64,000 bases of DNA from Sipunculus nudus (taxonomy: Eukaryota; Annelida; Sipuncula; Golfingiida; Sipunculidae). The stretch's first letter is position 1. Every line of letters starts with the position of its first letter. Positions 36,859 through 61,616 of this stretch are shown piece after piece. The DNA is taken from positions 68,554,926 to 68,618,925 of the forward strand of contig CM049309.1 in NCBI GenBank assembly GCA_026874595.1. Direction: 5' to 3'. Both the position numbers and the translations under genes were made by a program. The notes below the pieces were generated by a model. It worked only from the letters and a program-made list of their open reading frames with translations. It made no database searches and was not told the origin of the DNA.

Positions 36859-37378
36859 CAGAAACAGAATCCAACCGTTCACCTTGAATCAGGTACGTTT
36901 TGATTGTTGTATTTGTATAAATTGTTACGAAGGCAAATTGTTGAGGGGAAATCCCGGTCGATCCCGGTTTCGAAACCAGGTCGGTGGCGCACAAGTCCGG
37001 CGAACCAACCGCTTCGCTAGTAAAAGCAGGCTTCACTATAGTGCAGCGGTTAACGGCAAAATACAGAAGAATTGTTCAGATTGTGATAAAAGTACCAAAT
37101 TTTGTGGAGATGAAGTTTGGATAATACATTAAAATTTTTTTATTAGTTCCACCAAATCTTCTCAGTGTAACGGGGGTGGATCCTATGTTAAATTTGGGAT
37201 ACTCAAATTTATATGAAAAATACACGGAAGATCATCATAGTTACATTACATCTTATACATTCCTTATAGATAGGGTAATATTTTAGATTATTTGGTTCTA
37301 TTTAATTAACATCATCATGAGAAATGTAAAATTACCTTTGTAATCTCATTAATGTAAACATTTATAATTAAAAGATGA

Positions 37379-37759
37379 CTATTTGCCATTCAACGACATG
37401 TAGTTAACTGAAGTTAATTTATTGTTAAATATGACATAAATCCATAAATCTTCTGTTTTAAAGTAAGGTTTAATCACTATTCTCAATTCACATCTCGTCG
37501 ATGTCTCCTTTGATGAATATAGGAGACGGTGGGGGAGGGCAATGAGAAGGGGGGGGGGGGGGTTACTACTTACGTAGTATGGGTTCACTGTATAAACATT
37601 ACTTATTTCATCATACAATGTGTATGTTGCTTCGTGCTTAAAAATCATGTACAGTTTTATTGTTCTTAGTGCAAAATATCTGTTGTTAGTATTAATGAGC
37701 TTATGGACATTTCCATATGAGCACTGAAATAAACCCCTGAATTTCCAGGGGCGGATCAT
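37379..37759 (-). CDS. Unrecognised frame shared by both composite copies
   Basis: A 126-codon frame starting near MIRPWKFRGLFQCSYG includes NVHKLINTNNRYFALRTIKL and YDEISNVYTVNPYY. The right copy keeps the same frame with conservative changes (60753-61043). It then diverges at a C/G homopolymer, where the two copies fall into different frames. It lies between the LINE 3' end and the outer TIR. It may be a decayed gene of the TIR element or mere nucleotide conservation between young copies. Confidence 0.3.
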   Translation of the reverse strand: MIRPWKFRGLFQCSYGNVHKLINTNNRYFALRTIKLYMIFKHEATYTLYDEISNVYTVNPYYVSSNPPPPLLIALPHRLLYSSKETSTRCELRIVIKPYFKTEDLWIYVIFNNKLTSVNYMSLNGK

Positions 37760-37826
37760 ATTTAATTATGAGGGGCGGATCATATTTAATTATCGTGGTA
37801 CATTCTTTTAAAATGTTATGTACAAC

Positions 37827-38507
37827 TTAACAGCGTTTTAAAGTTTTATTTCTACAAACAAATCTTGAAAACCAACAAACTCTATCCATTCGCGTATACC
37901 TTCCCTTTTCAATTATCAAATCATGACATAAACATCTCAATCTGGCTAGCGCTTGTTTATGCTTGGTATTAGTCACACACAGATATTTCTCCATTAATTG
38001 ATAGCATGGATTTAAAAGTACCATATAAATTTAATTTAGTATTTACTTCTACATCACAAGACCAGTTTTGTTCTACCATATCAATAATTGTTTCCTTAAT
38101 TTTAGCCAAAAATATTCTAATGTCTCATACTTCTTGAGTCATCCACACATACCCAATACCTGCGCTGCATATTTTGCTTCTTATATGAGTAACCCATGTT
38201 TGTTTTCCATCCATATCTAGAGTAAACAGCATGTTATATATACGCTTTGGATATCTATTATTACCATAATGTACTGGTTTTGTCCAGTATTTTACACATC
38301 TGAATAACTGACCGACATACATGGGTGCCTTCCAAACTCTCTCAATGATGCTGCGTTCGGACCTGAAGAGCTAATTTTTAGAGTGTACTTGCAAAGTTTA
38401 TATTGCACCTTTTCATTTATTTTACATCTTTTATAGCCCCACAGTTCTGAACCATATAATAATACCGGATTAACCATACAATTAAATAGATAAAATAGCT
38501 GGCTCAC
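37827..38507 (-). pseudogene. LINE reverse transcriptase C-terminal region, left copy
   Basis: Three consecutive minus frames (38507-38292, 38322-38125, 38024-37827) together match the single longer frame at 60026-60564. They include LLYGSELWGYKRCKI, a motif of the region after the RT domain in jockey/CR1-like LINEs. Stops and frame shifts separate the pieces. Confidence 0.8.
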
Positions 38508-38745
38508 TTATAAACAACTATATTTCCTATAAAAGTTTTTTTATGAGAGTCACTGCTCTTTCAGCCTGCATTGCTTGCAGTTTCTTTGTTTTATACCATG
38601 ACAATGTACTTGTAAATATTACTCCTAAGTGTCTATTGTCTTTTACCGTTTCAATTTGAGTATTTTTGATAGTGCCATTTCTGTAATCTTTTTAATGAAC
38701 CATGAGTCTAAAAAAACATAATTTTTGTCTTTCCTAAATTAACTT

Positions 38746-39330
38746 TTAAGCCATAATTGAAAGAAAAAAGAGTTTCCCTGTTATCCCAGTTTTAACTGAA
38801 ACATACCACAATAAATCATGTTGTAAACTATCAAAAGCAGTTGAAAAATCAATAAAAGTGTAATAAACCCTTCTTTTTTTTTTTGTTAAATATTTCTGCA
38901 CACACCCCATTAAAGAAAATGTATGGTCTACTGTTGAATAACCTTTACTATAGCCAGCTTGTGCTTCACATAAGAATCCAGCTTGATCAACATAATTTTG
39001 AATTTCTGTTTGCCAATATTTTTGTAAATAGTTTACCCACGGTATTAAGCAGTGAAATACCTCTATATAATTTTTTAGCATCTATGGTGGAAGCCTTTTT
39101 GTGAATTGGTACAATAAATGCTTCACTTCAAGAGGCTGGGAAAATCCATTTCCTAATACACTATTATATAATTGTAATATATGAGAACATATGTGACATA
39201 TGTATCTTTCAATATATCTATACCGTTATCCCGTAAGGCCATGTGGCCTTTCCTCTTTTCATTTCATTTATGGCTTTCTGTACTTCACAAGGTGTTATGA
39301 GTCCATCAAGCACTGTATCATTTTTTTAAA
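38746..39330 (-). pseudogene. LINE reverse transcriptase fingers/palm fragment, left copy
   Basis: Shows YIEVFHCLIPWVNYLQKYW, GYSKGYSTVDHTFSL and YYTFIDFSTAFDSLQHDLLW, the RT blocks up to the first catalytic aspartate. The text then jumps from FFLSIMA directly to LKVNLGKTK, skipping the block that should hold the YxDD catalytic pair. Non-functional. Confidence 0.85.
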
Positions 39331-39353
39331 TAGTCCAGAGTATGATTCTTAAA

Positions 39354-39810
39354 CTATTGATTAATTTCATGTGTTGATGAATTCAAAAGTTCTTTAAAAT
39401 GTTTGTACCAACGTACCAGTTCTACTGTTGTAACAATTTTCTTTTTATTTAAAAATCTCATGTTTTTCCACATGGAATCAGTGTCTTTCGCACCTATCAC
39501 CTTTTGCATCCCCGGGGCTTGGATGATTGCCTTCTTTTCTTCACATAATTTTTTCAACATCTGTTTTGTTTGTTAATAATTAAGCTAGTCGCCATCTGAT
39601 ATTGTACATCTGCACTTATTCAAGCTATAATGTTTTATTTTTACAAAATTCACATTCTATGTCCCACCATTTTGGTTGCTTTAGTTTCATGTTGTCTAGG
39701 CAGTTTGGTTTATTTTTGTAGGATATATTTTGATAAATACTAACCAATGCCTCACTTGCTTTGTCCGGATATGTTTCTAAGGTTTCATTAAATGTGTTGA
39801 AAAGTAACAC
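39354..39810 (-). pseudogene. LINE linker region, left copy
   Basis: Minus-strand fragments such as NKPNCLDNMKLKQPKWWDIE and KDTDSMWKNMRFLNKK match the region between endonuclease and RT in the right copy (58790-59210). Interrupted by stops. Confidence 0.7.
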
Positions 39811-39852
39811 ACATTCTATTTGTTCTAATGATTTTGAAATATTTGTTTTATC

Positions 39853-40560
39853 TTAATCAGTCTGATAAAATTTTACCCATTTTGTCAGTTCGCATATATG
39901 TTCTTTCGAAAGCGTTTTCCTTGGTCTGATAATATTAAATGAACAGCTTAAAGGAAAGAGATCGGACGGATCATCTGATGATACACAGGATCCATCTACC
40001 TTATGAAGTAGACAACTTATGACAATTACATAATCAACTACACTGCTACCAAAAGGAGTTAAACACGTAATTAAGTCTCCTGGTATATCTGGTATATCTG
40101 TTATATTTACACTAATAGCATTAAAATCACCAAGGAGAATTAAATTAAATTCATCAAACTCTGCCAAAGTATCTACCAATAAATTTTTTTCAGCCTGTTG
40201 ATACCATTTATTTCATCTTCATCCACATAGAATGATGAACCTGCTGGTGCAATATAGCAGCAAATTATGGCCAAATCTTTATCTTCATTAATTAAGGTAC
40301 CATCATACCCATTAATTTCTGTTGCACGTAAACTAACACCCCTCCTATCCCTGTACTCTTCCTGACTATTCCATAACCATAGGATACGTGGAATGCATCA
40401 GAAAATTCATCAACCTTGGTTGTCCATGTCTCATTGATACATACTATACTGTGATTATTTATCAACTCTTTAACTTCTAATGATTTAATTTTGTTCTTAA
40501 GTCCATGTGCATTCCATATTGCTATTTCTGCATTAGCATTTCTGCTAGTGCTGGACTAGT
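39853..40560 (-). pseudogene. LINE APE-type endonuclease, left copy
   Basis: Minus-strand reading begins near AEIAIWNAHGLKN (Asn site), has CINETW (catalytic Glu), LLGDFNA (Asp/Asn) and SVVDYVIVISCLL, and reaches DDPSDLFPLS, where the histidine of the SDH motif is replaced by Leu. This copy lacks a roughly 40-base deletion present in the right copy but has frame shifts near 40200 and 40350. It is dead through the His loss, the frame shifts and the missing RT core. Confidence 0.85.
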
Positions 40561-40699
40561 TTACATAGGGGGAAATATTAAGTTTAAGTTGAAAAATATG
40601 ACAAACAGAAACAGGTTTTTATCCATATGCATGACGGAAAAAATCCTACTGATTCAAATAATATTAAATAAGATATATCTGAAATAATGTGTGCAATAG

Positions 40700-41340
40700 A
40701 AAATCACGGACTGTAGTCTGTTGGCCATATTTAATTTTGAGCAAGTCTGTATTTCAATAGGTCAGAAGCCCTCATAGGCACCAATGATCCCTGTGAATTT
40801 GAGAAAGATCAAGCATATTGTTGCAAAAGAAAATCAACGATAGTGCTCTGGTGGCCATATTGGAATTCAGACAGGTCTGCAATTCGATAGAGATGGAGCC
40901 CTTATAGGTACCCACACTCTGTGTAAATGAGACAGATCAAGCTTGTTCTTGTCGAGATATCGTGCTTAAAAGAATATCGCCAATTGTGCTCTGGGAGCCA
41001 TATTGGAATTCTGACAGGTCTGTTTTTGGAAAGGGGTTGTGTCCGTATAGGCACCAATGATCCCTGAGAAAAGATAAAGACCAAGCATGTTCTTGTTGAG
41101 ATATCCGGTGCGAAAGAAAATCACCCATTATGATCTGGTGGCCATATTGGAATTCCGACAAGTCTGTAATTCAAAAGGACTGAAGCCCTCTTATGTATCG
41201 ATCATCCCTGTGAATTTGGGAAAGCTGAAGTATGTTGTTGTTGTTGAGTTATCACGTGGGAAAGAAAATCAGCGATTGGGCTGTGGTGGCCATATTGGAA
41301 TTCTGACAGGTCTGTAATTCAATAGGTCTAGAGCCCTCGT
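40700..41340 (-). repeat. About 145-bp tandem monomers upstream of the LINE, left copy
   Basis: GCCATATTGGAATTC-like phrases recur at about 40724, 40854, 40997, 41141 and 41289 (spacings 130, 143, 144, 148), with TTGAGATATC and CCTATAGGCACCAATGATCC-type text between. The frames giving LSEFQYG and DHWCLYGHNPF repeats are products of the array. Confidence 0.85.
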
Positions 41341-42731
41341 ATGAACAGGAAAAGTAGATAGGCAGAGAAACATTTTACTGAATAAATAACTTGCTCTTTA
41401 GTAAGCTGATGGACAAACATAAATAGTTATAATTATATCCATGTAATAATTCATGCTGTCACCATACCCTTTATTAAGTGAATTATTCAATAAATGGTAA
41501 GCCTAAAGTTTGTTATAATTAACATGAAACATGTTTGCGATATATACATGTTAACAAAATTTAAAAGGCGTGCTAAATCGTGTTAGCTCTGCATAATACT
41601 TGATAAATAAATCCTGCTCCATTAATCTGGTCGTTTGTTAAACTGAATTAACTTCACTTGAAAGTAAAGTTTTAGCATCAGCAGACTTCTGTATTCCATG
41701 TACTGCAAAATAAAGGCCTTGATCGAACACTTTTAGATTAGACATTATTTATCAATTATTTAATTTATTCATCAATACCCCCAAAGTAATTGCAGGATCC
41801 ACCCCTGAAATACCATGAATATATCGTGGAACTATTTCTTAAACGAAAGCCAGTGTACAATACTACAACTGTACCAAATTTGGTACTTTTATCACAATTT
41901 GCACAATTTTTCCATTAGCCGCCACACTATACTAGCGAGACAGTTCAGTCCGCTTCTATGTGCACCCCGTAACAAAATATATTCTGTTTTTATAGCCCGG
42001 TTATATGTAAGTTGAACGTGTGTAACTTTTTACACGGGAAGACCTGTTACAATACACGTGGGCGCGGTATGGCCCGATGGTCTTTTGTAGCCTGCAATAA
42101 AACCCTTTTGGAAGTATTTGTTATGCTTTAGAATTAAACATATATGTTATAAAATACGTTATAATAAATGCACACCCTTCTTAAGAATATATACACTACA
42201 TGGCCATAATATGTCCTGGAGACGCACACACGCATACATACATATATACACACATTTATGTAAATAAAGTTGCTATAATGTGAGTTGCATAGAGAATGCA
42301 TTGGAGTGTTTTACAGACAAGGGCTCCAATTTGCTATTAAAATGAGACGCGAGTGCAAAAATAGTATTGAAATTAAAAAAAAAATTATGTTTATTCATGG
42401 TGATTTTCAGCAGGACAGAGGTTAAGTCAGGTAACTTACTGTTATTGTAAATATTGTAATAAGTAAAGACGTCCATGTTATTTTGTATTTATATTGAGGT
42501 TCTGGTCAGTTTAACTCACTGCTCATTCATATGATAAAAAGCACTTTCAAATAGGAGTTTGGTTAAGCTAGTTAATTTCATATAAAAAATTTACCATATT
42601 GTTTCGTACTAGAGAAGGTCTTAAATTTTCATCTCGTGCAGTAAAGTGTTATCAACATCAATATCTATTTAATTTTGTATAAATAATGTACATGATTAAA
42701 CGAGTGTATGTCTCTACATCTTGAATTTGAT

Positions 42732-42735
<4 letters not shown>

Positions 42736-42798
<63 letters not shown>
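42736..42798. repeat. (TA)n microsatellite
   Basis: About 62 bases of pure TA. Confidence 0.97.
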
Positions 42799-42801
<3 letters not shown>

Positions 42802-42966
42802 AATTAGTCTGTCTTTCAAGACTTGCAAGGGTACATTTCTTTTGTATCGTTAAATGGATTAAAGATTCAGATTTTAATTGATGAAGAGGGTATTACATGT
42901 ATAAAAAAAAGTCACACAATTAACAGAGAGGAAGGGGCAGACATATGGCACCTAGAAAAGTCTAGA

Positions 42967-42985
42967 ATTTTATATATATATATAC

Positions 42986-43031
<46 letters not shown>
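42967..43031. repeat. (TA)n microsatellite
   Basis: Second TA tract about 170 bases after the previous one, with one short interruption near 42985. Confidence 0.97.
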
Positions 43032-43035
<4 letters not shown>

Positions 43036-43872
43036 ACTACTTCATACAACTGAAAAAAGGTGTTCCTCTATTCCTCTATCGCATTTAGCAATAGGCCTAA
43101 ATGTTAACGCCATATGGAAGATTTAGAGCAAGATTTTCATAACTTGAGGATTATTAATTTGATTTCGTTATTTATTTTACATTTTACCAGTATAATTGAA
43201 TCAAGGTTTTCAGAAAGTCTTTTCCTTTTTTAACAAGTAACCCAGTTCGGCTGAGGCCGGAGAAGTAAGGTTAACCATGAGAGTTAACCGTGCGACCCTT
43301 TCACGATGATATCACACTCTGTTTGTGTTTGCTGACAACTTGTTGTAGTAGCGTGTGAAAATGTCGGCGGCGCACAATACCTCATCACGTAAACATCTCA
43401 TCCCCTCGCTAATGAGGGGTCATGTACCTGACTATACCCATCAGCACTGGATTGCATTACCCACCGGTGTAACGGCTTCAAGCTACACCTCTTTTCAGAC
43501 CTCCCCCCCCCCCGGCATTCTTAGATTATACTACACATGTTACTCCCCGGGGGTAGTTAATAGGCTGAGTTCATGCTACCCCCTTCCTGTTCAGATCAAC
43601 CCCCTCACCCCCTACCTAATACGATTATTTCTGGTATGTATACAATACACCTTTCCCCATTTCACTAGTGCCACCTACCAGCCATAAATGACACTAAGGG
43701 TTCGGGTCTGTTAAAGTAAGAGTCTGTGCGATCGGAATTGTGTTTCCAGGAACTGAGCTAATTGTATATATATTGTACCACAAGTCGGGAGAGAACGTGG
43801 CTAGTCGCAGTTCTGATCACAAGGTCGTACGACCAGAGGTGCCACCAATCGCGAGGTCGCACTAGCGCGGTG

Positions 43873-43896
43873 GCACGACCAATCGACTGGTCGTGC
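43873..43896. promoter_or_regulatory. Inverted repeat GCACGACCA / TGGTCGTGC
   Basis: Perfect 9-bp arms with a six-base spacer, inside a CpG-rich block (43790-43950) holding several GGTCGTACGACC-like palindromes. Function unknown; it could be a binding-site cluster or the remnant of a fold-back element. Confidence 0.45.
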
Positions 43897-43999
43897 GATG
43901 ACCAAAGACTGGTGGTACAACCTTCTTGCGAGCTCCTACGACCTCAAAATTTAAAAATTCGGTCGCAACTGGATTTTGAACATGTTGCGAGATTTTACT

Positions 44000-45420
44000 T
44001 AATTATTTCACTAGAGGCCATAGTTTTGGAGCAGTCGTTTTAAAACTGATTTATTTAATGTTGCAATGATATTTCGAAACCAATCTTTAATTTTTAAATA
44101 GCCACCAGGGGCGCTGCAGCAAAAACTATAAAATGTCATTGTCGTGCCTTACCTTTAAAATTATGAACAGTGTCACTACTTATATATAGCAGCATTTGAA
44201 AGTAGGATCAATAGACGTATTTCCTTATAAATAGACGCCCGGCCTCATTCTGCGGTAATCATTGTTACCAATTTTTTTTAAATCCATGAATTTTTTACGT
44301 TTATTTTTTTAATTCACTTTTAAAACTAGAGGTATAGTTTCGGGAAACATTTCGATAGTTTTAAACGATCTTATTTAAAGTCTCGCAACGTATCACGTCA
44401 AACATGATCTTGCATAAAATTATGGAGATGTTCTATCTCTGACACAACCCCCTTGCTATCTCTTTAAAACTTTAACTACTGGTATATGTTTATTTCACCA
44501 CGATACCTTTTGTTTTTGTCAAGATTGGTGTCCAAGGCCAAGATCAAGGTAAAAAAAACCTCAAGGCGTGTCTTATACTTTCACAACTTGGTCAAGAAAT
44601 GTTGTATTTAAAAAAATGTTACTCATTTTATGCATTTCACCATAATATACATGAATTATCTGGCCTAGAACTAGTTTATTTCTGTACGTCCCTCTGTTTG
44701 TTAGTCCACCCCTTTACAAAATAAGCAAAGCTGCACAAACTTATTGTTTTTTTTCTGCTTCCTCTAGGGTTATTCATTTGACTATGTCTCATTTCAACAT
44801 CTGGCAAGCACTCGACCTATGGTCGTATAGTTTATTTATTCAATAAACTAAAGCGCATGCTCATTTTTTACAAACATGAGGCGTTCAAGGATTATATCAA
44901 TTTGAGAAACTCAGATGGAAAAACATTAAGATATAACAAACAAATATTCATTAAGAATTGGCATTAATAGAAAAATTTAAATCAATAAGATATCATAATT
45001 TAAACCTACATATGTAACAGTTACCAAATATAACAATTTATTTATTATTATTAATAATATTATTGTTATATTATCATTACTTAATTATCACTTTTAAGTA
45101 ATAGTATTTGTGTAAATTAGTAGATACTGTTTTTCACGTTGTTGTTTGTTTTTTGTTGTAAACTTCTATAAGTAAGTATAAAACATCAAAAGGAAACTGT
45201 ATTTTGGGTTTTCCAGTCGTAGGGTGTCGGAGATTATGAAGAGATTGATTTCAACGTACAGGCGAAACCTACACCCAAAAATCTGATTACGATTCAATTT
45301 ATAAAATTAAAACCGGCGGGGGGGGGGGGGGAGGAACTGTGACGGAGGTTATCTGAAACGCTACACCGGCCACACCTTATACATATACGTATACATGTAC
45401 CACGCCTTGTTTACGAAAAT
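44000..45420. other. Noncoding stretch
   Basis: AT-rich, with a short CAAGGTCAAG-type fragment near 44525 related to the 11-12 kb repeat and a G run at about 45319. No exon seen before 45440. Confidence 0.4.
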
Positions 45421-45439
45421 GCTTTGAGGACTATCCCAG

Positions 45440-45607
45440 AAAGCTTTGGAGCGTAAAAAAAAAAGACTCGAGAAAGTTCGGCTTGATCACCTGGACGTGC
45501 CGGGCCCCACTTTGAAGACCTCAGACAGTGCGGGGTGGGACTTCCAAAGTAAACACTGGGTCACTCCGGAGGTTCGTTTCTACAGCGATATATATAGACC
45601 GCCACAG
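45440..45607 (+). CDS. Candidate internal exon, plus strand
   Basis: Acceptor GGACTATCCCAG ends at 45439 and donor CCACAG|GTATTT follows 45607. The 168 bases are exactly 56 codons, phase 0 on both sides. The reading starts basic (KALERKKKRLEKVRL), then DVPGPTLKTSDSAGWDFQSK, and ends VRFYSDIYRPPQ. GC and codon usage stand out from the surrounding AT-rich DNA. The family is not recognised. Other exons of this gene were not found; the region downstream is filled by the LINE/MITE tandem locus. Confidence 0.5.
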
Positions 45608-45750
45608 GTATTTGCTTTTGTATTGCTCTCGTGGAACTCGTGTCTTACTCTCAGTAAAAGAAATACAGGTAGGATGATTTTTAATTCGTTATGAATTTCA
45701 TGATGTATAATGTAATACATTTTAACAGTTGTAACGGAGCATATATATTT

Positions 45751-46817
45751 ATTTATTTATTTCAATATATTTATACAGGGTAGCCTGTTCAGTAATACAG
45801 TCTGTTCTTCCACAGGGCCCTGTAACCTTAAACATGATATAAATACCTGGTACAAAGATTATAAAATATACAGTATGCATATGTAACACAATATATGAAT
45901 CATCAAAGATACATGTACATAAATATTATATACACGACAAATAAGTCAGTCATGATATGCTACAATACATTAAACGCTACAATAGGTAAAATTCACTTTA
46001 TACGTGAACAACATAGTCGTACATAAAATTTCGTAATACATTCAAAGGGTAATGTATGTAAGAAAATGAGTAAAATGCACAATAATCATAAAAACTCGTG
46101 TAGACGCGGTTATAAAAGAATCCGAATAATAAAGACGGGTATTGACGATGCATATTAGGAAATAACATTGTCTTTAGGTTGTAATACTAAGACTTTAAAA
46201 GAAACGCTTTGGTCTTATGTTTAAAAGTATTTAAAGATTTTATAGATCTGATCTCGTATGGTAAGGTATTCCATACCGAAGGGCCTCTGTATAAGAAGCT
46301 ATTTTTGAAGAATTCATTTTTCGGTTTTGGCAATGACAGAAGGCCACTTTCAGCGGATCTGGTAGAATGATCATGCGTATCACTGACCCATATGAACTGT
46401 TTTGGATTATGGATATTCATTTGATTGACATATTTATGCATCAGGATACATATGAAATATTCACAGCGTTTAGAGACTGTTAGCCATTGTAGCTGTTGTA
46501 TCAGAGTGGCACTTGGGATTTCATGATCATAGCAGCTGGTAACAATACGTGCTGCACGATTTTGAATTTTTTGCAGTTTTCTGTGGCAAATTGAGGATTT
46601 CGTTTTGCCCCATACACTTATGGCATAGTCGATATGTGGCTGGATCTTGGTATTATAGACTGTTATTAATGTATTTATGGATAGTACTTTACTAAGGCGG
46701 TGTAACAGTGCTAAGTTTGGTGACAACTTTTTACATAGGGTAGTTTCATGTGAGAACCTTGATAAATTAGAATCAATAGTTACACCTAATAGTTTGGTTT
46801 CCGATGATTCTTGGAAA
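45751..46817 (-). mobile_element. 5'-truncated jockey/CR1-like LINE
   Basis: The minus strand is open from about 46815 to a stop at 46187, beginning near ETKLLGVTIDSNLS and including QPHIDYAISVWGKT and KLQKIQNRAARIV, the conserved post-RT region of jockey/CR1-type LINEs. The 3' untranslated part ends with ATAAATATATTGAAATAAAT and an AAAT repeat tail at about 45751. The frame of about 205 codons is uninterrupted, so this insertion looks younger than the LINE in the composite element. The RT core and endonuclease are missing through 5' truncation. Confidence 0.85.
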
Positions 46818-46910
46818 TATATATATATGCCCTAAAAAAGTGTATTTTGAACAATTGTTACAGCTTTTTAAACGTAATTCAAGGTATTACATGTTAACAG
46901 TTGTAACTGA

Positions 46911-46954
<44 letters not shown>

Positions 46955-46957
<3 letters not shown>

Positions 46958-47795
46958 TGGTGGGAGTCGGTTCCTTTTTCATAGTCGATCATCGGTTTGA
47001 GCAAACCGACTGATGATCGATTATTCATCGATCCTGTGTTTCCCCGGCAGGTATTCTCCTCTCGCGCACGAGTGTAACGATCCTTCCACGTATAAAGACA
47101 ATCAGACTAATTTAAAGATCAAATTTAACGACGGGTAATATCTTTCATTGTGGAAATTAAGAGCGTCTAAGAATGTTAGGCCTATAGATGGGCTGTTTTT
47201 CTATCACATGAAGTCAGATTTTACGGGCCCAGGTGCGCTTGGGGCAGATCATCCAAAAAAAATTGCAGACTAGTCCAAAATAAAATTCCAGCTGAAATCC
47301 AAATATTCGACCGGCCGGGTTAGCCCCAACAAAGATTTTTTTTAAGGACGGCCTAAACAACGGCACCTGACATCCGTTGAATAGAATGTTTCTAAGAGAA
47401 TCTCGCAAAATTGGCATAGACCTTGAGAATTTATGGAGCATTTCAACGCCTTCCCGCCCAATTTTGCAGTCTACATCTCGTAAGAAAACTCTCCGCTAAT
47501 TCTGCAGCTCCCTGCGAGTTCACAAATAATAAGTTTAATAAGTCCTCCGTTCTGGCATCTATATACCGTGTCATACTCAGTTTTATATGGAAGTTATTTG
47601 GAAACCCAGACTCATTATATAAAGCGCGGAATGTGGTAAAAAAATGAAAAATAAATATTGCCTATAACATAAAGGCATTCTGGAAAGAATACAATCATTA
47701 TTATGATGTAATCGATAGTTGCCTTTGGTAATCGAGCGCTTGAAAGTGGCAGGAAACCGACTGACTTTCGATAAAACTGGATGATCGGCCCACCA

Positions 47796-47798
<3 letters not shown>
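46955..47798. mobile_element. hAT-like MITE, copy 2, inside (TA)n
   Basis: Begins TAGTGGTGGGAGTCGGTTCC and ends GATGATCGGCCCACCACTA, flanked on both sides by ATATATAT, a perfect 8-bp duplication although inside a TA repeat. 844 bp; the middle (about 47040-47380) differs from the other two copies. Confidence 0.85.
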
Positions 47799-47853
<55 letters not shown>

Positions 47854-49477: not shown

Positions 49478-50396
49478 TAGTGGTGGGAGTCGGTTTCTTT
49501 TTCATAATCGATCATCGGTTTAGGCAAACCGATCGATGATCGATTATTAATCGGTTCAGACAAATTTAAAGAAATATGCAATTATATTTGAAACTTTACT
49601 CTCTTAACCCAACCCGTATGTCTTAGTAATTCTTCCTTATGAAAAGAAGTCTTTTCCTTTTTATAATAGGAATATTTTCCTATTATTACTAAGCTATGCT
49701 ATTAAAAGTTTCATTTTTATTAATTATAATAATCAAGAATTAAACCACAGTCCAGGACATCTACTTGCTGGCCCTCAAGAATACTTCGGCGAATCATTTA
49801 AACTTTACCACCAGCAAGGACTTTCATTTTATAACAATTATGACGACTGCCGACATGCATACTGGTTTCAAAGGCCCGCCAGGAAAATTACAGACCTCAA
49901 TAATTGTTGGTAAAAATTTAAAAAAATTAATTGAAAGCTTAATATATATAATTACTTATGCGGCAGCGGCACCTGACATCAGTTGAAGTGATTATTTCTA
50001 AGAGAATCTCACAAAATTGGCATAGACCTGGAGAATTATGGAGCATTTTAACGCCATATCGCCCATATTTTGCAATGAACATCTCGTTAGAATACTCTCC
50101 GTTAATTCTGCAGCTCCCTGCCAGCTCATAGAGGTTTAAAAATCCTCCGTTCTCTCATCTACCGTGTCATACTCAGTTAGATACGGAGATTATTTTGGAA
50201 CATAGCCTTATTATATGAAGCGCGGAATGTTGTAAAATATGGAAGAATAATTTTGTCTATAACATAAAGACATTCCGAAAAAAAAAAAACAATCATGAGT
50301 ATGATGTAATTGATAGTTGCCTTTGGTAATCGAGCGCTTGAAAGTGGCAGCAAATCGACTGACTTTCGAAAAAACTCGATGATCTGCCCACCACTA
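49478..50396. mobile_element. hAT-like MITE, copy 3
   Basis: Begins TAGTGGTGGGAGTCGGTTTC, ends GATGATCTGCCCACCACTA and is flanked by the perfect 8-bp target duplication GCTCTGGC (49470-49477 and 50397-50404). A subterminal imperfect hairpin lies at about 49506-49545 (AATCGATCATCGGTTT against its near reverse complement). 919 bp. Short frames such as FHFITIMTTADMHTGF are shared with copy 1, but there is no transposase. It ends 98 bases before the TATA box of the CUB gene. Confidence 0.92.
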
Positions 50397-50502: not shown

Positions 50503-50524
50503 GTCTCTGTCTATTTTTCGTAGC

Positions 50525-50596
50525 TGGCAGAATTAGCTCCTTTTCTTGGACACGCTTTCTTTGTTATCAGTGACGATTATACCTCTCCAGCCAAAG
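50525..50596 (+). other. Probable 5' untranslated exon of the CUB gene
   Basis: Runs from the predicted start near 50525 to the donor CCAAAG|GTAGAAG. The matching acceptor TTTTAACTTTCAG lies at 51000-51012, nine bases before the ATG. The intron contains a pyrimidine-rich run of CTTTTA-like repeats (50860-51000). Confidence 0.5.
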
Positions 50597-51451: not shown

Positions 51452-51529
<78 letters not shown>

Positions 51530-53512
51530 CACTTCATTGTGCATGTGACCAATGACCAATGAGTCATTCTAATTATCAAATTTAGCCAATGCTTGTTTCC
51601 TGCATTAAAGCTTCATGAAGCTAACTTTTTTTTAATAAAGCAGTCATATGTGCATGAAACTTTTAATTATGCATGAAAAATTACACCATTATTACAAATA
51701 ACTATTTCGATTGTCTTTTTTTTCAGCAACTCTGTACTTTCCACATATGTGCCAGAGACTGAATTTTTTAGGATTTTACGGTATAAATTTGGTTTCCCAG
51801 TCGACGGATACATACGCAGCCAACTATCAGTGTATTGTCACCGTGACTCTCTCTAGAAATTACTACGCCAACCTGACATTCACGAGATTTGAGCTTGAAC
51901 CTCCATCAAATGGCGTATGTAATGACTACTTGCAAATATACCAGGGCAGGAGTGCCGATGGGCCTCAGATAACGGGTCAAGTCTGCGGTTCCGTTCCTCC
52001 CTTCCACAATTTCATAGCCAATACCTCGGAGATCACAGTCATATTCAAAACAAACCATGTCAATGAACGTCAAGGGTTTCGTCTGGAGATAAGGCGTGCG
52101 CAGAAATTGCACAATAGCGGAGGATCTTCCGGTTTAAGCGGTGGTTCGTCCGGAGGTTCCGGTGTGACCATGCCTTACGGCGGTGGAGGCGTTTATAATA
52201 CTGCAGCCAGCCCACTAGGTGAGTTCATGAAGCATAATTTTCATGATACACTGAACCCTCGAATCACTTTAACTGATCCATGCATCCACGTGCTTTATTT
52301 TTATATATTCTTACATTTTATAAATACAAAATCATTTTTACAAGGATTTTTGTTTATGTTTGAAGAGTACTATAAATATCACATTCTGTAGAACTCATGG
52401 AAACGAGGTGGCGAATCTCGTTAACAGGCCATTCCCCAAAATGGCTAAAAACTTTTTTTGTCTCGCATACGGACAGTCATGTGTGAACAAAACTTTTAAT
52501 CGGCCGGAAAAAAGGAATTATTGACAATTATCAGAACTCTTTGGATAAAAGTGCCTGTCGATGTCATGAATATGCACCAGGTCTACGACATGGACTTGAT
52601 TTAATCGGTTTTCCTTTAATTGTTGCCAATGAAAAATAAGTAGATAATCCCTTGAACGTTTTTTATTGTGCAGGCGCGGATCCAGGATTATTTGCACGTG
52701 GGGGGGGGGGGGGGGGGTAGTGTCAACGCTAGTGTAGATAAACATAGGGCGATTATTATTCCGAGCAGTCTAAATTTGGTCGAGATTCCCCCCCCCCCCC
52801 CCCCCCCGGATCCGCGCCTGTTGTGTCAACCGAAATGAACGCTTTTCTCGAATAGCCTTTGCATATCAAACTCGCATGTGGTTGTTTTCTGTTGGTCCCC
52901 TTTAATTTCACCTATACGGGGTTTAGTCCATTATACATACTAATATATTCAATTGTCCATTTTAATAAAGAAACATCCTATAATGTCCACATAAGAAATG
53001 AAACCAACGAATCATATAATGCCAATATTTTGTGGTAGTAAATTTACAAGCGAGTGGCAATGCTCTGAGCTAATAAACAGTTACCGGTCTGAAAGGTCAA
53101 CTATCGGTAAGCATACCTTATTCATGGCAACGTACACTGAGGAATTCATTTAGCTGTAAACCCCCGACAATTGAAACCATTCACACCTATGACTTTGTAT
53201 GCAATTTAATAAGAAGAAAGAAACAAACACTCAACAAAGTACGCATATATACACAACCACTTAATACACTGTAAAATACCACCTCATAGTGAACATGGGA
53301 TGCACTGTTCGCATGTCCGACGTGTCAAACTGCGACTTAACACAAATGTCACAGTAGGTGTTCAGTAGTAACAGATGAGAGGAGGTACAGGTATTTAATA
53401 TTTACTCAGATTCGAGTGGGCTTTATGTATTTCAGAGGCGACGCCTTGGACAAAGTGGACAACTGTTACTCTTTTATTGGCATCTAGGCTGTCTGACTCT
53501 CTCAGCAGATGA
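51022..53512 (+). CDS. Secreted single-CUB-domain protein (three coding exons, 218 aa)
   Basis: Coding exons are 51022-51109, 51727-52218 and 53436-53512, with donors ACAC|GTGAGT and CTAG|GTGAGT and acceptors TTTTTTTCAG and ATGTATTTCAG. Both introns are phase 1 and the total of 657 bases is exactly 219 codons. Residues 1-23 are a signal peptide (MMHASQYFIVFLLAVVLSLG). A CUB domain spans about 38-152, with the four cysteines C38, C65, C94 and C116 expected to pair 1-2 and 3-4, plus the FxLE...C.DYL core (F84 to L98) and CG at 116-117. D96 of the calcium site is present, but the usual later Asp is Asn (N139). N-glycosylation sites are N78 and N128. Residues 160-184 form a Gly/Ser-rich linker, followed by a short tail to R218. 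CUB proteins act outside the cell in adhesion, protease targeting or matrix. An alternative start is the second ATG at 51025. Confidence 0.85.
51181..51194. repeat. TA/GT microsatellite in intron
   Basis: Short tract in the first coding-region intron of the CUB gene, just after the donor. Confidence 0.7.
51454..51526. repeat. (CT)n(TA)n compound microsatellite in intron
   Basis: About 30 bases of CT followed by about 42 of TA, between coding exons 1 and 2 of the CUB gene. Confidence 0.97.
52671..52820. mobile_element. GGATCC/poly-G TIR element in the last CUB intron
   Basis: CAGGCGCGGATCC at the left and GGATCCGCGCCTG at the right are perfect 13-bp inverted repeats. TTGTG lies on both sides, a probable short target duplication. 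The interior contains G19 and C20 tracts. At 150 bp this is the cleanest member of the family in the window. Confidence 0.8.
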
Positions 53513-53752
53513 AACGGCGACCACTGTTTCCATGGCATTTCGGGTCAAAGGCTTGTGAAGTCATGACACCCTGTTCTAGCTTCTGGTGGCACGGTTGGTA
53601 AGGCCACAAAAATGAATAAATTGTTCCATGAACTCTGGGACCATACATATTTGGAGCCAGTGATTTGTTTTCTTTTATATGTAACTGGCATAGAAAAATA
53701 TAGTTCACATGTTGCAGCTTGTAGGAAGGATAATGTTGGCCAATGTCAAAAT

Positions 53753-53758
53753 AATAAA
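53753..53758 (+). terminator. Poly(A) signal of the CUB gene
   Basis: AATAAA about 240 bases after the stop codon at 53510-53512; the first clear hexamer downstream on this strand. Confidence 0.6.
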
Positions 53759-53779
53759 GTATTGCATATATGAAGAAAA

Positions 53780-55685
53780 CAAATTTATTAAGTTTACAAT
53801 TATATCTTTATAAATGAAAATTTACATGATTGATACTCAGCAATTAGCAATGTTAATACCTAGGACTTATTGCTTATTATTCAAAGTCTCCCTAAATGGA
53901 TATGTAAAAACAGGAGTGACAATTCCGTATAATTTTCTTGGTGTGCCTAAATGATTCATGAGGCACCCAGGGACCGCTTCAGAGAGGAGCTACCAAATCA
54001 TATCTTTACTTGAGCGAAAACGTTTACTTACTTACAACGCCAATGACGAGTACATATTTCCACTCAGTTTATAATTGACAAGAGGCGTTGGTGTTTTGCC
54101 AGTGTTAGCTGGTTTAGATCAAGCGGTGAGTGATTGGATACGTGGCCCCTCCCTGTTGCCATGGAGTCATGTGCATTTATCAATCTTCGGTCAGGAATTC
54201 AGTTTCATGCGTGATTTATGTAACCTTACAACTCCACCCTAACAGTATATGGCTACGCCTGCCTTTTTATAGATTGTTTTTTTATGGAGGTTAACACTTT
54301 CTTTGTGATTTTTCCTTCGTTACTTTGAATATAAACTACTTAATTATTATAGCCCCGTACGAAAACTTTTAATTTTCTTTTTTTAAAGAATTCCTTTGGT
54401 GGAGGTAGCCGCCTCCATTTTTTTATGCTTGATTAAATATAAGTGATATGTACATCTGCAGAATTCTATTGCGGTTTCGGACTACGTGACACGTGGTAAT
54501 TCCGGTGTCAACCACACTCGGTGTATACACTGAATGCGGGTCCTGGGTGTGTGTTATCCACCTAAGAATCTCCTTTATGATTGAGACAGAGCGCTCACCC
54601 TGGGTTGGGACCGACAGTGTGAAGGTTAAGTAAACCTATTCCACGTGCGTTTGTGTGAATGAAGGATTTCATCTAGTCCCAGGCTTTGCCCTGATTTGAT
54701 TGGGTGGTACACATGTGATATCATGGACTGAATTTTATCAACAACTCAGATCTAGTAATGCATATTGTTTTTATTCTCTGCTAAAATTTTGGGACCGACA
54801 CTGGCAGAAACACTGTGTTTTTACTGAGATCTAGAATTTTTGGTCACAGGGGATTTCCCAGTGTGTGACGTCACTGCCGTGATTACATTGCTCATAGATG
54901 TGACAATAGTGAACAAATCACACAACCTCATGTTTTTAGTAGGAAAATATATGCAAAAAATGTTTTCCTCCAGGAATTGGGCTCATTATATGTACTATCT
55001 ATATTAATATTTTTTTTTTATAACCAGTTATGTTATATGATAATATAATGAGATTTGGAATACGTTTGCTAGACCTGAAATCTCACTGCCTCGGCCGAGA
55101 TACGAAATCATGACCTCCTTTGAGCCCGGAGCTCTATCCCAAGACGATGGACGTCGGTCGTTACGCGTGCCTTAAAGAATAAGAAACCGGCACACATTTG
55201 TATTATTCATGAGCAAGTTTTCATTTAAAATCGATATATTATCCCGGTTTTCGTTCCTCATGATTTTACATCTATCTTTCGCTCATGAATTTTCCAGTTA
55301 CTCGTACATAAATAAATAGGACCACTTGCAAAATGCTCTAAATAATGTTATCTGTTCATACTTTGTTTGTATTGAAGAAAGGGATACGAAACAAGTATTG
55401 TGAGATTTTTCTCACTAGTTATTTCTAGACTGCTGTCTTCCGGTGACATGTTTGTCTTTGTATGTGTATGTGTGTGTTTAAATGCTGTTTTTTTATTGCG
55501 TCCTATTCATCAGAAGATTTTGTGGCCATGTGGTTTTACATATCTACTTTAACATTTCATCTGTCAGACACCGCATGATGTCAATTTATACAAATATGGG
55601 TGCATTGTTAATGATTGTATTGATAGGCCAGATTAGTGTAATAACTAACCTAACCGGCAAGTATGGTAACACGAATTCTGTGATA
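53780..55685. other. Noncoding stretch downstream of the CUB gene
   Basis: No exon or element with definable ends. A short GC-rich patch at about 55085-55145 has tRNA/SINE-like text on the minus strand (see findings). Confidence 0.4.
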
Positions 55686-55687
<2 letters not shown>

Positions 55688-55733
<46 letters not shown>

Positions 55734-55746
55734 TCATCATCATCAT
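55688..55746. repeat. (TA)n(TCA)n microsatellite
   Basis: About 42 bases of TA passing into five TCA triplets. Confidence 0.97.
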
Positions 55747-56637
55747 AAATCATGAGTGATATATTAATAATTAAAATATCAATTGCATACTGTATTGATG
55801 TTTTATAATAAAAATGTTAAATGTTACTTGACACCTTGTACACTGTTCTTAATTTGTTGATATTTGATGTAGATTGCTATTATCGGGAACTTAAAACTGC
55901 GTCATTTTTTTTAATTGAACAACGTTAAAATATCATATAAAACATTAAGCTGACAACGTACGCCGAAAGTTCTGATTCAGTAGCAAAGGAATGTGTAAAT
56001 TCAGATCCATCAATCAATACTTGGACAGCACTAATTGCTGTACCGGTAAGTCAAACCAGCAGTCAGCTGCGTGGACATATACAGCTATCTTGTAAACTTA
56101 AACCGTTAGAGAGTTCAGTGTATCAAGTATAAATCTATATATACTTTGTGGGGTGTTTATGAATTTAAAATGACATCACCTCATGATCTACATGCAGCTA
56201 CGCTGTCACTTAAAACCTCACCTCAACCAGACCATTCGTTAGATAGTTTTGTGTACATTCTCTCAACACCTTATACCTGTGCGAGAAAATTCCCTTATAA
56301 CTGATATATTGGTAATCACTCCCCCCCCCCCCCCCTCCACATGTTTGTTGAATTTCTGACCGCATGAATACAAGAACACGATACACGGGTTACTGGGAAA
56401 CTTGAACGCGACACGGGACAAGTAACCATGGAGATGGAATTATACTTTGGTTTGTGAGTTCACATGTTTATTTTGTAGCCTAATGTTAAGATTACCACAA
56501 TATCCATGCAGTACGATGGATGACCAGGGCTGTACATTTCCCAGTATAACTTGTGTCTCGACTCAAGTGGGCATTTAAGTCAAATATGAATGCCTACTGA
56601 GACGTGTATACATGTTTAATTTTGTTACTTAACAAAA
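55747..56637. other. Noncoding stretch before the right composite copy
   Basis: AT-rich with a C run at about 56321-56334; no exon or repeat ends seen. Confidence 0.4.
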
Positions 56638-57239
56638 TAGTGCGGCGGCTAATGGGAAAATTGTGCAAATTGTGATAAAAGTACCAAATTTGGTACAGTT
56701 GTAGTATTGTACACTGGCTTTCGTTTAAGAAATAGTTCCATGAAATATTCATGGTATTTCAGGGGTGAATCTTGCAATTACTTTGGGGGAACCGATAAAT
56801 AAATTAAATAATTGATAAATAATGTCTAATCTAAAAGTGTTCGATCAAGGCCTTTATTTTGCAGTACATGGAATACAGAAGTCTGCTGATGCTAAAACTT
56901 TACGTTCAAGTGAAGTTAATTCAGTTTAACAAGCGACCAGATTAATGGAGCAGGATGTATTTATTTATCAAGTATTGTGCAGAACTAACGCGATTTAACA
57001 CGCCTTTTTAATTTTTTTAACATGTATTTATATCGCAAACATGTTCCATGTTAATTATAACAAACGTAGGCTTACCATTAATTGAATAATTCACTTAATA
57101 AAGGGTATGGTGACAGCATGAATTATTACATGGATATAATTATAACTATTTATTTTTGTCAATCAGCCTACTAGAGCGCAAGTTATTTATTCAGTAAAAT
57201 GTTCGGAACTCTGCCTATCTACTTTTCCTGTTTATATGA

Positions 57240-57880
57240 GGGCTCTAGACCTATTGAATTACAACCCTGTCAGAATTCTAATACGGCCAACACAGCCCAA
57301 TCGCTGATTTTCTTTCGCACGTGATAACTCAGAAACAACAACATCCTTCAGCTTTCCAAAATTCACAGGGATGATCGGTACATACGAGGGCTTCAGACCT
57401 ATTGAATTACAGATTTGTCGAAATTTCAATATGGCCACCAGATCATAATGGGTGATTTTCTTTCGCACCGGATATCTCAACAAGAACATGCTTGATCTTT
57501 ATAATGTTCTCAGGGATCATTGGTGCCTATACGGACATAATCCCTTTCCAAAAACAGACCTTTCAGAATTCCAATATAGCTCCCAGAGCACAATTGGCGA
57601 AATTCTTTTAAGCACGATATCTCGACAAGAACAAGCTTGATCTATCTCATTTACAGAGAGACGATTGGTACCTATAAGGGCTCCATCTCTATCGAATTGT
57701 AGACCTGTCGGAATTTCAATATGGCCACCAGAGCACTATCGTTGATTTTCTTTCGCAACAATATGCTTGATCTTTCTCAAATTCACAGGGATCATTGGTG
57801 CCTATGAGGGCTTCTGACCTATTGAAATAAAGACTTGCTCAAAATCAAATATGGCCAACAGACTACAGTCCGTGATTTTA
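57240..57880 (+). repeat. About 145-bp tandem monomers upstream of the LINE, right copy
   Basis: Same array as 40700-41340 in reverse orientation. Shared phrases include AATATGGCCACCAGA, GATATCTCAACAAGAACATG and ATTGGTGCCTAT. About five units sit 150-200 bases before the endonuclease frame. Confidence 0.85.
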
Positions 57881-58039
57881 TATTGCACGCATTATTTCAG
57901 ACATCTTCTTTAATATTATTTGAACCAGTAGGATTTTTTCCCTCATGCATATGGATAAAAACCTGTTTCTGTTTGACATATTTTTCAACTTAAACTTAAT
58001 TTTACCCGTATGTAAACTAGTCCAGCACTAGCAGAAATG

Positions 58040-58918
58040 CTCATGCAGAAATAGCAACATGGAATGCACATGGACTTAAGAACTAAATTAAATCAGTAGA
58101 AGTTAAAGAGTTGATAAATAATCACAGTATTGTATGTATCACTGAGACATGGGCAACCAAGGATGATGAATTTTCTGATGCATTCCAGGTATACTATGGT
58201 TATGGAATACTCTGGAAGAGTACAGGGAGAGCAGGCGTCTTAGTTTACTCGCAACAGAAATTAAAGGGTATGATGATACCTTAATTAATGAAGATAAAGC
58301 TTTGGACATAGTTTGCTGCTATATTGCACCAGCAGGTTAATTCTAAACAGGCTGAAAAATTTATTGGTAGATACTTCAGCAGAATTTGATGAATTTAATT
58401 TAATTCTCCTTGGTGATTTTAATGCTAGAACTGTCAATATAACAGATATACCAGATATACCAGGAGACTTAATTACGTGTTTAACTCCTTTTGGTTGCAG
58501 TGTAGTTGATTATGTAATTGTCAGTAGTTGTCTACTTCATAAGGTAGATGGATCCTGTGTATTATCAGATGATCCGTCCGATCACTTTCCTTTAAGCTTT
58601 TCACTTATTATTATCAGACCAAGGAAAGAGCTTTCGAAAGAACACATATGCGAACTGACAAAATGGGTAAAATTTTATCAGACTGATGAAGATAAAACAA
58701 ATATTTCAAAATCATTAGAACAAAAAGAATGTGTGTTACTTTTCAACACATTTAATAAAACCTTAGAAACATATCCGGACAAAGCAAGTGAGGCATTGGT
58801 TAGTATTTATCAAAATATATCCTACAAAAATACACAAAACTGCCTTGACAACATGAAACTAAAGCAACCAAAATGGTGGGACATAGAATGTGAACTTTGG
58901 AAAAATGAAAAATTATAG
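58040..58918 (+). pseudogene. LINE APE-type endonuclease and linker, right copy
   Basis: Starts near AEIATWNAHGLKN, with an in-frame TAA soon after. CITETW (catalytic Glu), LLGDFNART (Asp/Asn), VVDYVIVSSCLLHKVDG and DDPSDHFPLS (catalytic Asp-His retained) follow. The frame from 58313 is open for 201 codons to 58918. About 40 bases are missing near 58337 relative to the left copy, breaking the join to the N-terminal part. Jockey/CR1/I-group APE endonuclease. Confidence 0.85.
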
Positions 58919-59219
58919 CTTTGAATAAGTGTAGATGTGCCATATCAGATGGCGACTTACTAAATTATTAACAAACAAAACAAGAGTTTAAAAAATCATG
59001 TGAATGAAAGGAAAACAATCATCCAAGCCTCAGAGGTGCAAAAGGTGATAGGTGTAAAGGACACTGATTCCATGTGGAAAAACATGAGAATTTTTAAATA
59101 AAAAGAAAATTGTTACAACAGTAGAACTGGTACGTTGGTACAAACATTTAGGAACTTTTGAATTCATCAACATATGAAATTAATCAAAAGTTTAAGAATC
59201 ATACTCTGGAATATTTAAA

Positions 59220-59830
59220 AAAAAAATGATACAGTGCTTGATGGACTCATAACACCTTGTGAAGTATAGAAAGCCATAAATGAAATGAAAAGAGGAAAGG
59301 CCAAAGGGCCTGACGGGATAACGGTAGATATATGGAAAGATACATAGTCACATATCGTCTCATATATTACAATTATATAATAGTGTATTAGGAAATGGAT
59401 TTTCCCAGCTTCTTGGAGCGAAGCATTTATTGTACCAATTCACAAAAAGGCTTCCACCATAGATGCTAAAAAAATTATATAGAGGTATTTCACTACTTAA
59501 TACCGTGGGTAAACTATTTACAAAAATATTGGCAAACAGAATTCAAAATTATGTTGATCAAGCTGGATTCCTATGTGAAGCCCAAGTAAAGGTTATTCAA
59601 CAGTAGACCATACATTTTTTTAATGGGGTGTGTGCAGAAATATTTAACAAAAAAGAAAAGAAGGTTTTATTACACTTTTATTAATTTTTCAACTGCTTTT
59701 GATAGTGTACAACATGATTTATTGTGGTATGTTTCAGTTAAAACTGGGATAAAAGGGAAACTTTTTTTTCTGTCAATTATGGCTTAAAAGTTAATTTAGG
59801 AAAGACAAAAGTTATGTTTTTTTAGACACG
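59220..59830 (+). pseudogene. LINE reverse transcriptase fragment, right copy
   Basis: Includes KRGKAKGPDGIT (RT finger motif), ISLLNTVGKLFTKILANRIQ and YYTFINFSTAFDSVQHDLLW. At FFLSIMA the text joins LKVNLGKTK, the same junction as in the left copy, so the YxDD block is absent. Several frame shifts. Confidence 0.85.
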
Positions 59831-60025
59831 TGGGTTCATTAAAAAGATTAGAGAAATGGCACTATCAAAAATACTCAAATTGAAACGGTGAATGACTGTA
59901 GATACTTAGGGGTAATATTTACAGGTACATGGTCATGGTATAAAACAAAGAAAGCATAGCAATGCAGGCTGAAAGAGCAGTGACTCTCATAAAAAAACTT
60001 TTATAAGAAATATAGTTGTTAATCA

Positions 60026-60564
60026 GTGAGCCAGCTATTTTATCTATTTGATTCTATGGTTAAACCGTTATTATTATATGGTTCAGAACTGTGGGTGTAT
60101 GAAAGATGTAAAATAATTGAAAAGGTGCAATATAAACTTTGCAAGTACACTCTAAAAATTAGCTCTTCAGCTCCGAACGCAGCATCATTGAGAGAGTTTG
60201 GAAGGCACCCATGTATGTCGGTCAGTTATTCAGATGTGTAAAATACTGGACAAAACTAGTACATTATGGCAATAATAGATATCCAAAACGTTTATATAAC
60301 ATGCTGTTTACTCTAGATATGAATGGAAAACAAACATGGGTTACTCATATAAGAAGCAAAATATACAGCGCAGGTTTTGGGTATGTGTGGATGAATCAAG
60401 AAGTAGGAGACAGAAGGTTTTTGGCTAACAGTAAGGAAACAATTATTGATATGGTAGAACAAAACTGGTCTTGTGATGAAGAAGTAAATATTAAATTAAA
60501 TGTATATGGTACTTTTAAATCCATGCTATCAATTAATGGAGAAATATTTACTGTGTGTGACTAA
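60026..60564 (+). pseudogene. LINE C-terminal region, right copy
   Basis: Two overlapping frames (60026-60241 and 60211-60564) contain LLYGSELWVYERCKI and continue through GRHPCMSVSYSDV and KYWTKLVHYGNNRYPKRLYN to a stop at 60562-60564. Longer uninterrupted reading than in the left copy. Confidence 0.8.
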
Positions 60565-60752
60565 TACCAAGCATAAACAAGCGCTAGCCAGATTGATATG
60601 TTCATGTCATGAGTTGATAATTGAAAAGGGAAGGTATACGCAAATTGATTGAGTTTGTTGGTTTTCAAGCTTGGTTTAGTTGTACATTTACGATAACATT
60701 TTAAAAGAATGTACCCTGATAATTAAATATGATCCGCCCCTCATAATTAAAT

Positions 60753-61043
60753 ATGATCCGCCCCTTGAAATTCAAGGTTTTATTTCAGTGCTCATATGGA
60801 AATGTCCATAAGCTCATTGATACAAACAACAAATATTTCGCACTAAGAACAATAAAACTGTACATGATTTTTAAGCACGAAGCAACATACACATTGTATG
60901 ATGAAATAAGTAATGTTTATACAGTGAACCCATACTACGTAAGTAGTAACCCCCCCCCCCCCCCTTCTCATTGCCCTCCCCCACCGTCTCCTATATTCAT
61001 CAAAGGAGACATTGACGAGATATTAATTGAGGATAGTGATTAA
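60753..61043 (+). CDS. Unrecognised frame near the composite 3' end, right copy
   Basis: A 96-codon frame beginning MIRPLKFKVLFQCSYGNVHK corresponds to the left-copy frame at 37379-37759. After the poly-C tract it reads PSPIFIKGDIDEILIEDSD to a stop. No family recognised. Confidence 0.3.
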   Translation: MIRPLKFKVLFQCSYGNVHKLIDTNNKYFALRTIKLYMIFKHEATYTLYDEISNVYTVNPYYVSSNPPPPPSHCPPPPSPIFIKGDIDEILIEDSD

Positions 61044-61616
61044 ACCTTACTTTAAAACAGAAGATTTATGGATTTATGTCATATTTAACAATTAAATTAA
61101 TTTCAGTTAACTACATGTCGTTGAATGGCAAATAGTCATCTTTTAATTATAAATGTTCACATTAATGAGATCACAAAGGTAATTTTACATTTTTCATGAT
61201 GATTTTAATTAAATAGAACCAAATATTCCCCTATCTATAAGGAATGTATAAGATGTAATGTAACTATGATGATCTTCCGTGTATTTTTCATATAAATTTG
61301 AGTACCCCAAATTTAACATAGGATCCGCCCCCGTTACACTGAGAAGATTTGGTGGAACTAATAAAAAAAAGTTAATGTATTATCCAAACTTCATCTCCAC
61401 TAAATTTGGTACTTTTATCACAATCTGAACAATTCTTCTGTATTTTGCCGTTAACCGCTGCACTAAAAGGGTGGAAGCCAGATGAATATATAGTACAAAA
61501 AAAGTGAAAGCAGATTGAGTGTTCTGTATATTTTATTGAAACAAACAATTCACATGCACCCTAACTGAACGTCCTGCGTCCCCATTGCATACACTTGGAT
61601 TTATATGCTGGTTGGC

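Follow-up and report, generated by a model that had tools for sequence, protein, structure and literature searches.

Terminal-inverted-repeat elements of Sipunculus nudus that probably multiplied an internal LINE fragment by DNA transposition

The stretch analysed here is a window of 64,000 nucleotides from Sipunculus nudus (contig CM049309.1, positions 68,554,926 to 68,618,925 of the forward strand), which contains two 4.9-kb repeats in opposite orientation, at 37039-41930 (copy 1) and 56638-61465 (copy 2), with a spacing of 14.7 kb. Both carry part of a long interspersed nuclear element (LINE) between terminal inverted repeats (TIRs). Measured end to end from GTG to CAC, copy 1 is 4888 bp and copy 2 is 4824 bp long, with an extra TA at either side, and the two are 95.0% identical across 4789 aligned columns, evenly along the unit. 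Read from one terminus to the other, both units contain the right arm, some five monomers of ~144 bp, the endonuclease, the reverse transcriptase (RT), the C-terminal part, a pair of 24-bp repeats and the left arm. An earlier note on this DNA had described two units of 4.8-4.9 kb at these places, in opposite orientation and with one inner order, and this description is confirmed.

Copy 1 lies on the minus strand, which is its LINE strand, and is flanked by the triplets CTA and TAC, which do not match. Its left TIR arm (37039-37198, plus strand) and right TIR arm (41780-41930, minus strand) each comprise an 'outer' and an 'inner' inverted block (repeats I1 and I2). Between the arms lie two 24-bp repeats of the GGGGCGGATC type, past the LINE 3' junction (37740-37787, repeat D6), the putatively captured internal fragment of the LINE open reading frame (ORF; 37880-40524, minus strand) and five ~144-bp monomers (40671-41343). 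The fragment, delimited by its similarity to a LINE copy elsewhere in the genome (L059; copies are labelled L and contigs C), runs from the start of the endonuclease domain (PF03372) to a point inside the C-terminal region, matches RVT_1 at positions 24-90 of 205, and contains the junctions of an endonuclease deletion (40093-40096, minus strand) and of a ~290-nt deletion in the RT catalytic core (38768-38770, minus strand). Copy 2, on the plus strand, is flanked by the 3-bp duplication AAA and consists of the right TIR arm (56638-56793, plus strand; repeat I1), five ~144-bp monomers (57234-57908; repeats D1 and D2), the corresponding LINE ORF fragment (58052-60653, plus strand; from the L059 comparison and Pfam), two 24-bp repeats (60714-60761; repeat D7) and the left TIR arm (61302-61465, minus strand; repeats I1 and D3). 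Within its LINE fragment, the longest open piece is an endonuclease fragment (58298-58915, plus strand) with an internal deletion at 58447-58450, and the junction of the RT-core deletion, located by comparison with L059, is at 59764-59766 (plus strand). No YxDD motif is left in either window copy.

The ends of the element read TAGTGCRGCGG...CCGCYRCACTA. In the window the terminus pattern (at most 3 mismatches) occurs at 4 places, which are the four unit ends, against a mean of 0.8 in shuffled sequence, where 4 places also turned up in 1 of 100 shuffles. In the 1.43-Gb source genome of the window, a 16-base terminus was found at 192 places and its reversed control at 0. Among the first 100 of these 192 places, to which our statistics on end types, pairing and neighbours refer, 55 ends are left-type, 40 right-type and 5 mixed. 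Plus and minus ends within 16 kb of each other form 24 pairs, representing 23 elements since one is a cross-pair of the duplicated copies L015 and L016, and every pair joins a left-type to a right-type end (in one, the partner is a mixed-type end). An endonuclease match (150 endonuclease places were used) lies within 7.5 kb on the expected strand for 73 of the 100 ends and on the other strand for 0; at least 11 of the 27 ends with none belong to packages that have lost the endonuclease in part or entirely (L009, L013, L020, L021, L024 and L062). Three left-type ends on one strand of C5 (33766475, 33772196 and 33777903), spaced by ~5.7 kb, are perhaps a tandem duplication, and a cluster of left-type ends at C2:76.9-80.1 Mb, without right-type partners among the ends listed, is perhaps a local amplification.

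For detailed comparison we used 22 copies, namely both window copies and 20 of the 23 paired elements (copy 2 is another of the 23, and two long paired elements, of 14.1 kb on C2 and 7.9 kb on C7, lie outside the sample); in statistics on 21 copies L016 was dropped as a duplicate of L015. TA stands beside both ends in 19 of the 22 copies, but it is part of the TIR, and the TA duplication that the earlier note proposed to look for has to be replaced by a target duplication of 3 bp, directly outside the TIR, which is found in 19 of 21 copies (20000 re-pairings gave 1.8 on average and never more than 8). In L018 and L027 the TA is altered on one side and the 3-bp match is kept. The search for empty sites proposed in the earlier note was rewarded once: the flanks of L022, joined with one triplet, align without a break across the junction to window positions 363-609 (minus strand; 73% identity, 253 columns), which represents a paralogous empty site, an intact copy of the kind of repeat into which L022 had inserted. 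This site alone would not set the length of the duplication, other lengths aligning about as well at 73%.

Three free copies of the LINE (L059, L060 and L061), without TIR text in the 6 kb examined, show what the packages have lost. L059 has a complete endonuclease domain (PF03372, positions 1-225 of 225) and an RVT_1 domain to position 204 of 205. The best solved-structure match of the free LINE RT is L1 ORF2p (8sxt, E 9.5e-34); a PDB search with the endonuclease fragment gave weak unrelated matches only (E >= 0.13), and a viral_contigs search for relatives of the endonuclease piece confirmed none. The packages are similar to L059 from ~1903 to ~5056, over ~3.15 kb of free-LINE text, and both breaks lie inside the free LINE ORF. 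Both boundaries are kept in 20 of the 22 packages (L021 lost the start and L022 the end), and when the junctions are aligned, with 20 packages per side, the break falls at the same base or a few bases off, with small deletions in L014 (5' side) and L010 (3' side); no LINE tail was seen at the packaged 3' junction in the aligned copies. After position 2375 of L059, 167 nt correspond to 2 nt in copy 1 (~165 nt net), a gap that affects all packages spanning the spot and is larger in L012, L026 and L028, and other deletions there are found in L015, L019, L020 and L021. The RT-core deletion is common to 6 of 21 copies (both window copies, L009, L018, L020 and L027); 14 copies retain 180-280 of the 280 positions tested in this stretch, and L022 lost the whole area. 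The ~144-bp monomers are present in the packages and have no match in the three free copies. Because the same two boundaries and the absence of part of the endonuclease recur across the copies, the LINE part was incomplete already in the ancestor of the copies compared. The earlier note had a LINE acquired as a whole; the cargo is instead an internal, broken ORF fragment, with an incomplete endonuclease wherever that region is spanned, and its similarity to the free LINE ends inside the ORF, so that the insertion does not finish with the 3' end proper to the LINE.

The packaged LINE 3' junction was found at 119 places and the matching free-LINE junction at 37 (at most 3 mismatches; controls 0), one short pattern being used for each, with diverged or deleted copies missed and local duplications included. 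Eleven of the 37 free junctions lie within 0.4 Mb at C17:10458526-10831031, on the same strand and with common changes, which represents a local amplification of the free LINE. In the frame of L059, between 1 and 12 stops interrupt the covered codons of every one of the 22 packages. The three codon positions differ little in divergence between packages (.071/.079/.066), as expected for cargo, whereas divergence between packages and free copies is slightly higher at third positions (.078/.084/.099).

Pairwise distances between the copies are correlated for LINE and arms (r = 0.64), LINE and monomers (0.57) and arms and monomers (0.59), with 0 of 2000 permutations reaching any of these values; in the copies compared, LINE, arms and monomers have a common history. 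We consider it highly probable that the element is a non-autonomous class II TIR transposon, with TIRs of ~170 bp and 3-bp target duplications, which carries the LINE as dead cargo and was spread by DNA transposition in trans. A transposase from a related autonomous element would cut and paste the package in trans, and the LINE fragment would ride along passively. The internal ends of the fragment suggest that it entered by capture at the DNA level, of the pack-type or aberrant-excision kind, and not by LINE retrotransposition. In essence this supports the proposal of the earlier note that LINE sequence was taken up by a TIR DNA transposon and that the package then spread; the spread looks like DNA transposition.

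Several observations weigh against this interpretation. Copy 1 and L017 have no matching 3-bp duplication, the empty site is a 73% paralogue and not an allele, and for 21 of the 22 copies the joined flanks found no spanning match in the DNA compared. No transposase or autonomous partner was found, and the pieces of the unit that were searched contain no Pfam transposase. The 20 copies from elsewhere in the genome are biased towards intact packages, because they were chosen for two perfect termini. Free copies carry stops too (L059 0 in 921 codons, L060 1 in 744 and L061 9 in 909, in the L059 frame), and divergence between free copies is also flat by codon position (.026/.033/.024); since free copies look alike in these respects, the stop and codon-position tests separate cargo from free copies poorly. 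Finally, the LINE 3' end may have been absent at entry or may have been lost before amplification.

This last point bears on the alternative that survives best, although we regard it as unlikely: a LINE retrotransposed into an existing TIR element, and the composite amplified only after deletions had removed the LINE 3' end and some of the endonuclease. In its favour, the LINE is present as a single block in a single orientation, and a short interspersed nuclear element (SINE) within a Tc1/mariner miniature inverted-repeat transposable element (MITE), the SINE of MER6, for which such an insertion has been proposed, is a published composite of this kind (PMC6887750). The junctions speak against it, with both LINE ends inside the ORF of the free LINE in 20 aligned rows each and no LINE tail at the 3' one. 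Target-primed reverse transcription retains the 3' end of a LINE, and the internal breaks at both ends thus make entry by this route less likely, unless the 3' end was lost before the burst.

The structure of the termini is that of a single TIR element. The earlier note was right that outer and inner inverted blocks are shared by the two units, but these are not separate termini: in copy 1 the two blocks (repeats I1 and I2) are colinear at both ends, together with the stretch between them, and form blocks of a single TIR of ~170 bp. With the first 60 nt excluded, the match of the next 140 nt to the opposite end still beats at least 190 of 200 shuffles in 19 of 21 copies, and in 9 of 21 it beats all 200; the two misses are L015 and L028. 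From 200 to 420 nt inward, 0 of 21 copies exceed the shuffle threshold, and a longer TIR, to ~400 bp as hinted by repeat I3, is not supported. Since one TIR accounts for both the 'outer' and the 'inner' termini, there is no sign of the nested second element with GGATCC-type termini that the earlier note had suggested. The presence of a GGGGTGGATCC block ~130 bp inward of each end in copy 1, and its similarity to the 24-bp repeats close to the 3' side of the LINE (D3 of copy 2), could be read as traces of such an element, but with the intervening sequence colinear at both ends this explanation has very little chance of being correct.

We also give very little credence to the idea that the TIRs belong to the LINE, either because the LINE is of an unusual family that has inverted termini or because RNA of the package was retrotransposed in trans by the free LINE. 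A LINE lies near 73 of the 100 ends among the matches listed, a better-preserved free LINE family that could act in trans does exist, and left-type ends, those on the LINE 3' side, somewhat outnumber right-type ones (55 versus 40 among the 100 listed). This excess is mild, however, and comes partly from the C2 cluster, and the packages examined keep both ends and the 3-bp duplications, with an incomplete endonuclease where it is spanned. The three free copies lack TIR text, and one of the two refutation tests set in the earlier note thereby came out in favour of its reading. On contigs C1-C7, 0 of 11 free junctions lie within 7.5 kb of a perfect terminus among the matches listed (coordinates compared by eye).

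A segmental (inverted) duplication, finally, would account for two window copies 14.7 kb apart in opposite orientation with 95% identity, and one true local duplication does exist (L015/L016 at C3:7342617-7357080, two packages at a distance of 8.4 kb whose 300-bp flanks are identical), but for the window pair it is exceedingly improbable and was ruled out, since similarity drops to a gap-rich background at the TIRs and since, among the 20 other copies, L009, L018, L020 and L027 are each closer to copy 1 and to copy 2 than these are to each other. The flank check suggested in the earlier note agrees: among the 22 copies, both 300-bp flanks are common to the L015/L016 pair only. With four nearer relatives elsewhere than its neighbour, each window copy is an independent insertion.

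We also examined five extra places, picked because no endonuclease match was listed nearby. Three of these (L062, L064 and L065) are packages with partial loss of the LINE, and L063 is an internal-deletion derivative in which the first ~200 nt of the LINE are kept. L066 has no LINE; it has ~580 nt and ~650 nt in common with the two arms and contains an exon-like ORF of 74 amino acids (4531-4752, with a CxxC motif) and a ~2-kb insertion. The ORF gave no Pfam match up to E 1, and a genome search with it gave 12 matches at 10 places, L066 included; at three of the other places a perfect terminus is 0.8 to 5 kb away (C6:50013044, C6:81385045 and C2:71685066). We tentatively raise the possibility of an animal pack-type TIR family that has acquired at least two unrelated cargoes between its termini: most copies would hold the LINE ORF fragment, whereas L066, and perhaps these three places as well, would hold an exon-like piece of a gene. 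If so, cargo exchange would be a habit of this TIR family. The exon-like ORF may instead be a remnant of the family's own transposase gene.

Other features of the window are two tandem arrays, at 13096-13875 (65-bp unit, ~12 copies) and 17523-18661 (37/74-bp units, ~31 copies of the short unit), and a dispersed repeat of ~0.9 kb (23718-24617, 49478-50396 and 47358-47801; 86% identity, the third copy partial). An ORF of 214 amino acids at 46187-46831 (minus strand) resembles by eye the C-terminal part of another LINE RT, without a Pfam match up to E 1, and an ORF at 51702-52388 (plus strand) has a CUB domain (PF00431, E 7.6e-13).

The termini do not place the element in a known superfamily among those considered. 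Tc1/mariner elements have a TA target duplication, and membership was rejected on the 3-bp duplication and the position of TA inside the TIR. PIF/Harbinger elements have a 3-bp TWA duplication, and of the 19 matching triplets here 2 are TAA and 0 TTA. CACTA/EnSpm termini read 5'-CACTR...YAGTG-3', and the ends here, 5'-TAGTG...CACTA-3', are of the opposite sense. The cargo is of the pack type, that is, an internal fragment of sequence present elsewhere in the genome (L059-L061 and the 37 free junctions). An open-access literature search for a LINE inside a mariner gave no case in point among the titles listed; a Bombyx mori mariner-like element is said to enclose a LINE and another retrotransposon in a 'tripartite structure'.

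The nearest published animal case that we found is MER6/MER6A, a Tc1/mariner MITE that contains an Ac1-like SINE (PMC6887750). There, as here, a non-autonomous DNA transposon multiplied a retroelement segment unable to move alone. The cargo differs, here comprising ~3 kb from the interior of a LINE ORF and lacking the LINE 3' end, with donor LINE and package in one genome, and so does the target duplication, which is 3 bp and not the TA of Tc1/mariner. In plants, capture by Pack-CACTA elements is ascribed to aberrant excision of neighbouring copies in a review (PMC13317346). Pack-CACTA and Pack-MULE elements are likewise described there as non-autonomous TIR elements with internal cargo of other genomic sequence, usually non-functional (PMC13317346); the present family is found in an animal genome, carries part of a retrotransposon ORF (at 119 places by junction), and has TAGTG...CACTA ends. 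KolobokP, described as abundant in bivalves, is also a composite-like DNA transposon, but its termini are long direct repeats and it has a transposase of its own (PMC9587614); neither was seen in the window copies.

The family offers a clean case, within one genome, of a DNA transposon multiplying retrotransposon coding sequence, with 119 packaged versus 37 free junctions. Automatic annotation would probably label the packages as LINEs and misjudge the activity of the LINE. As donor and package are both present, with a substitution divergence of 8-10%, this genome could be used to date and test capture by an animal TIR element.

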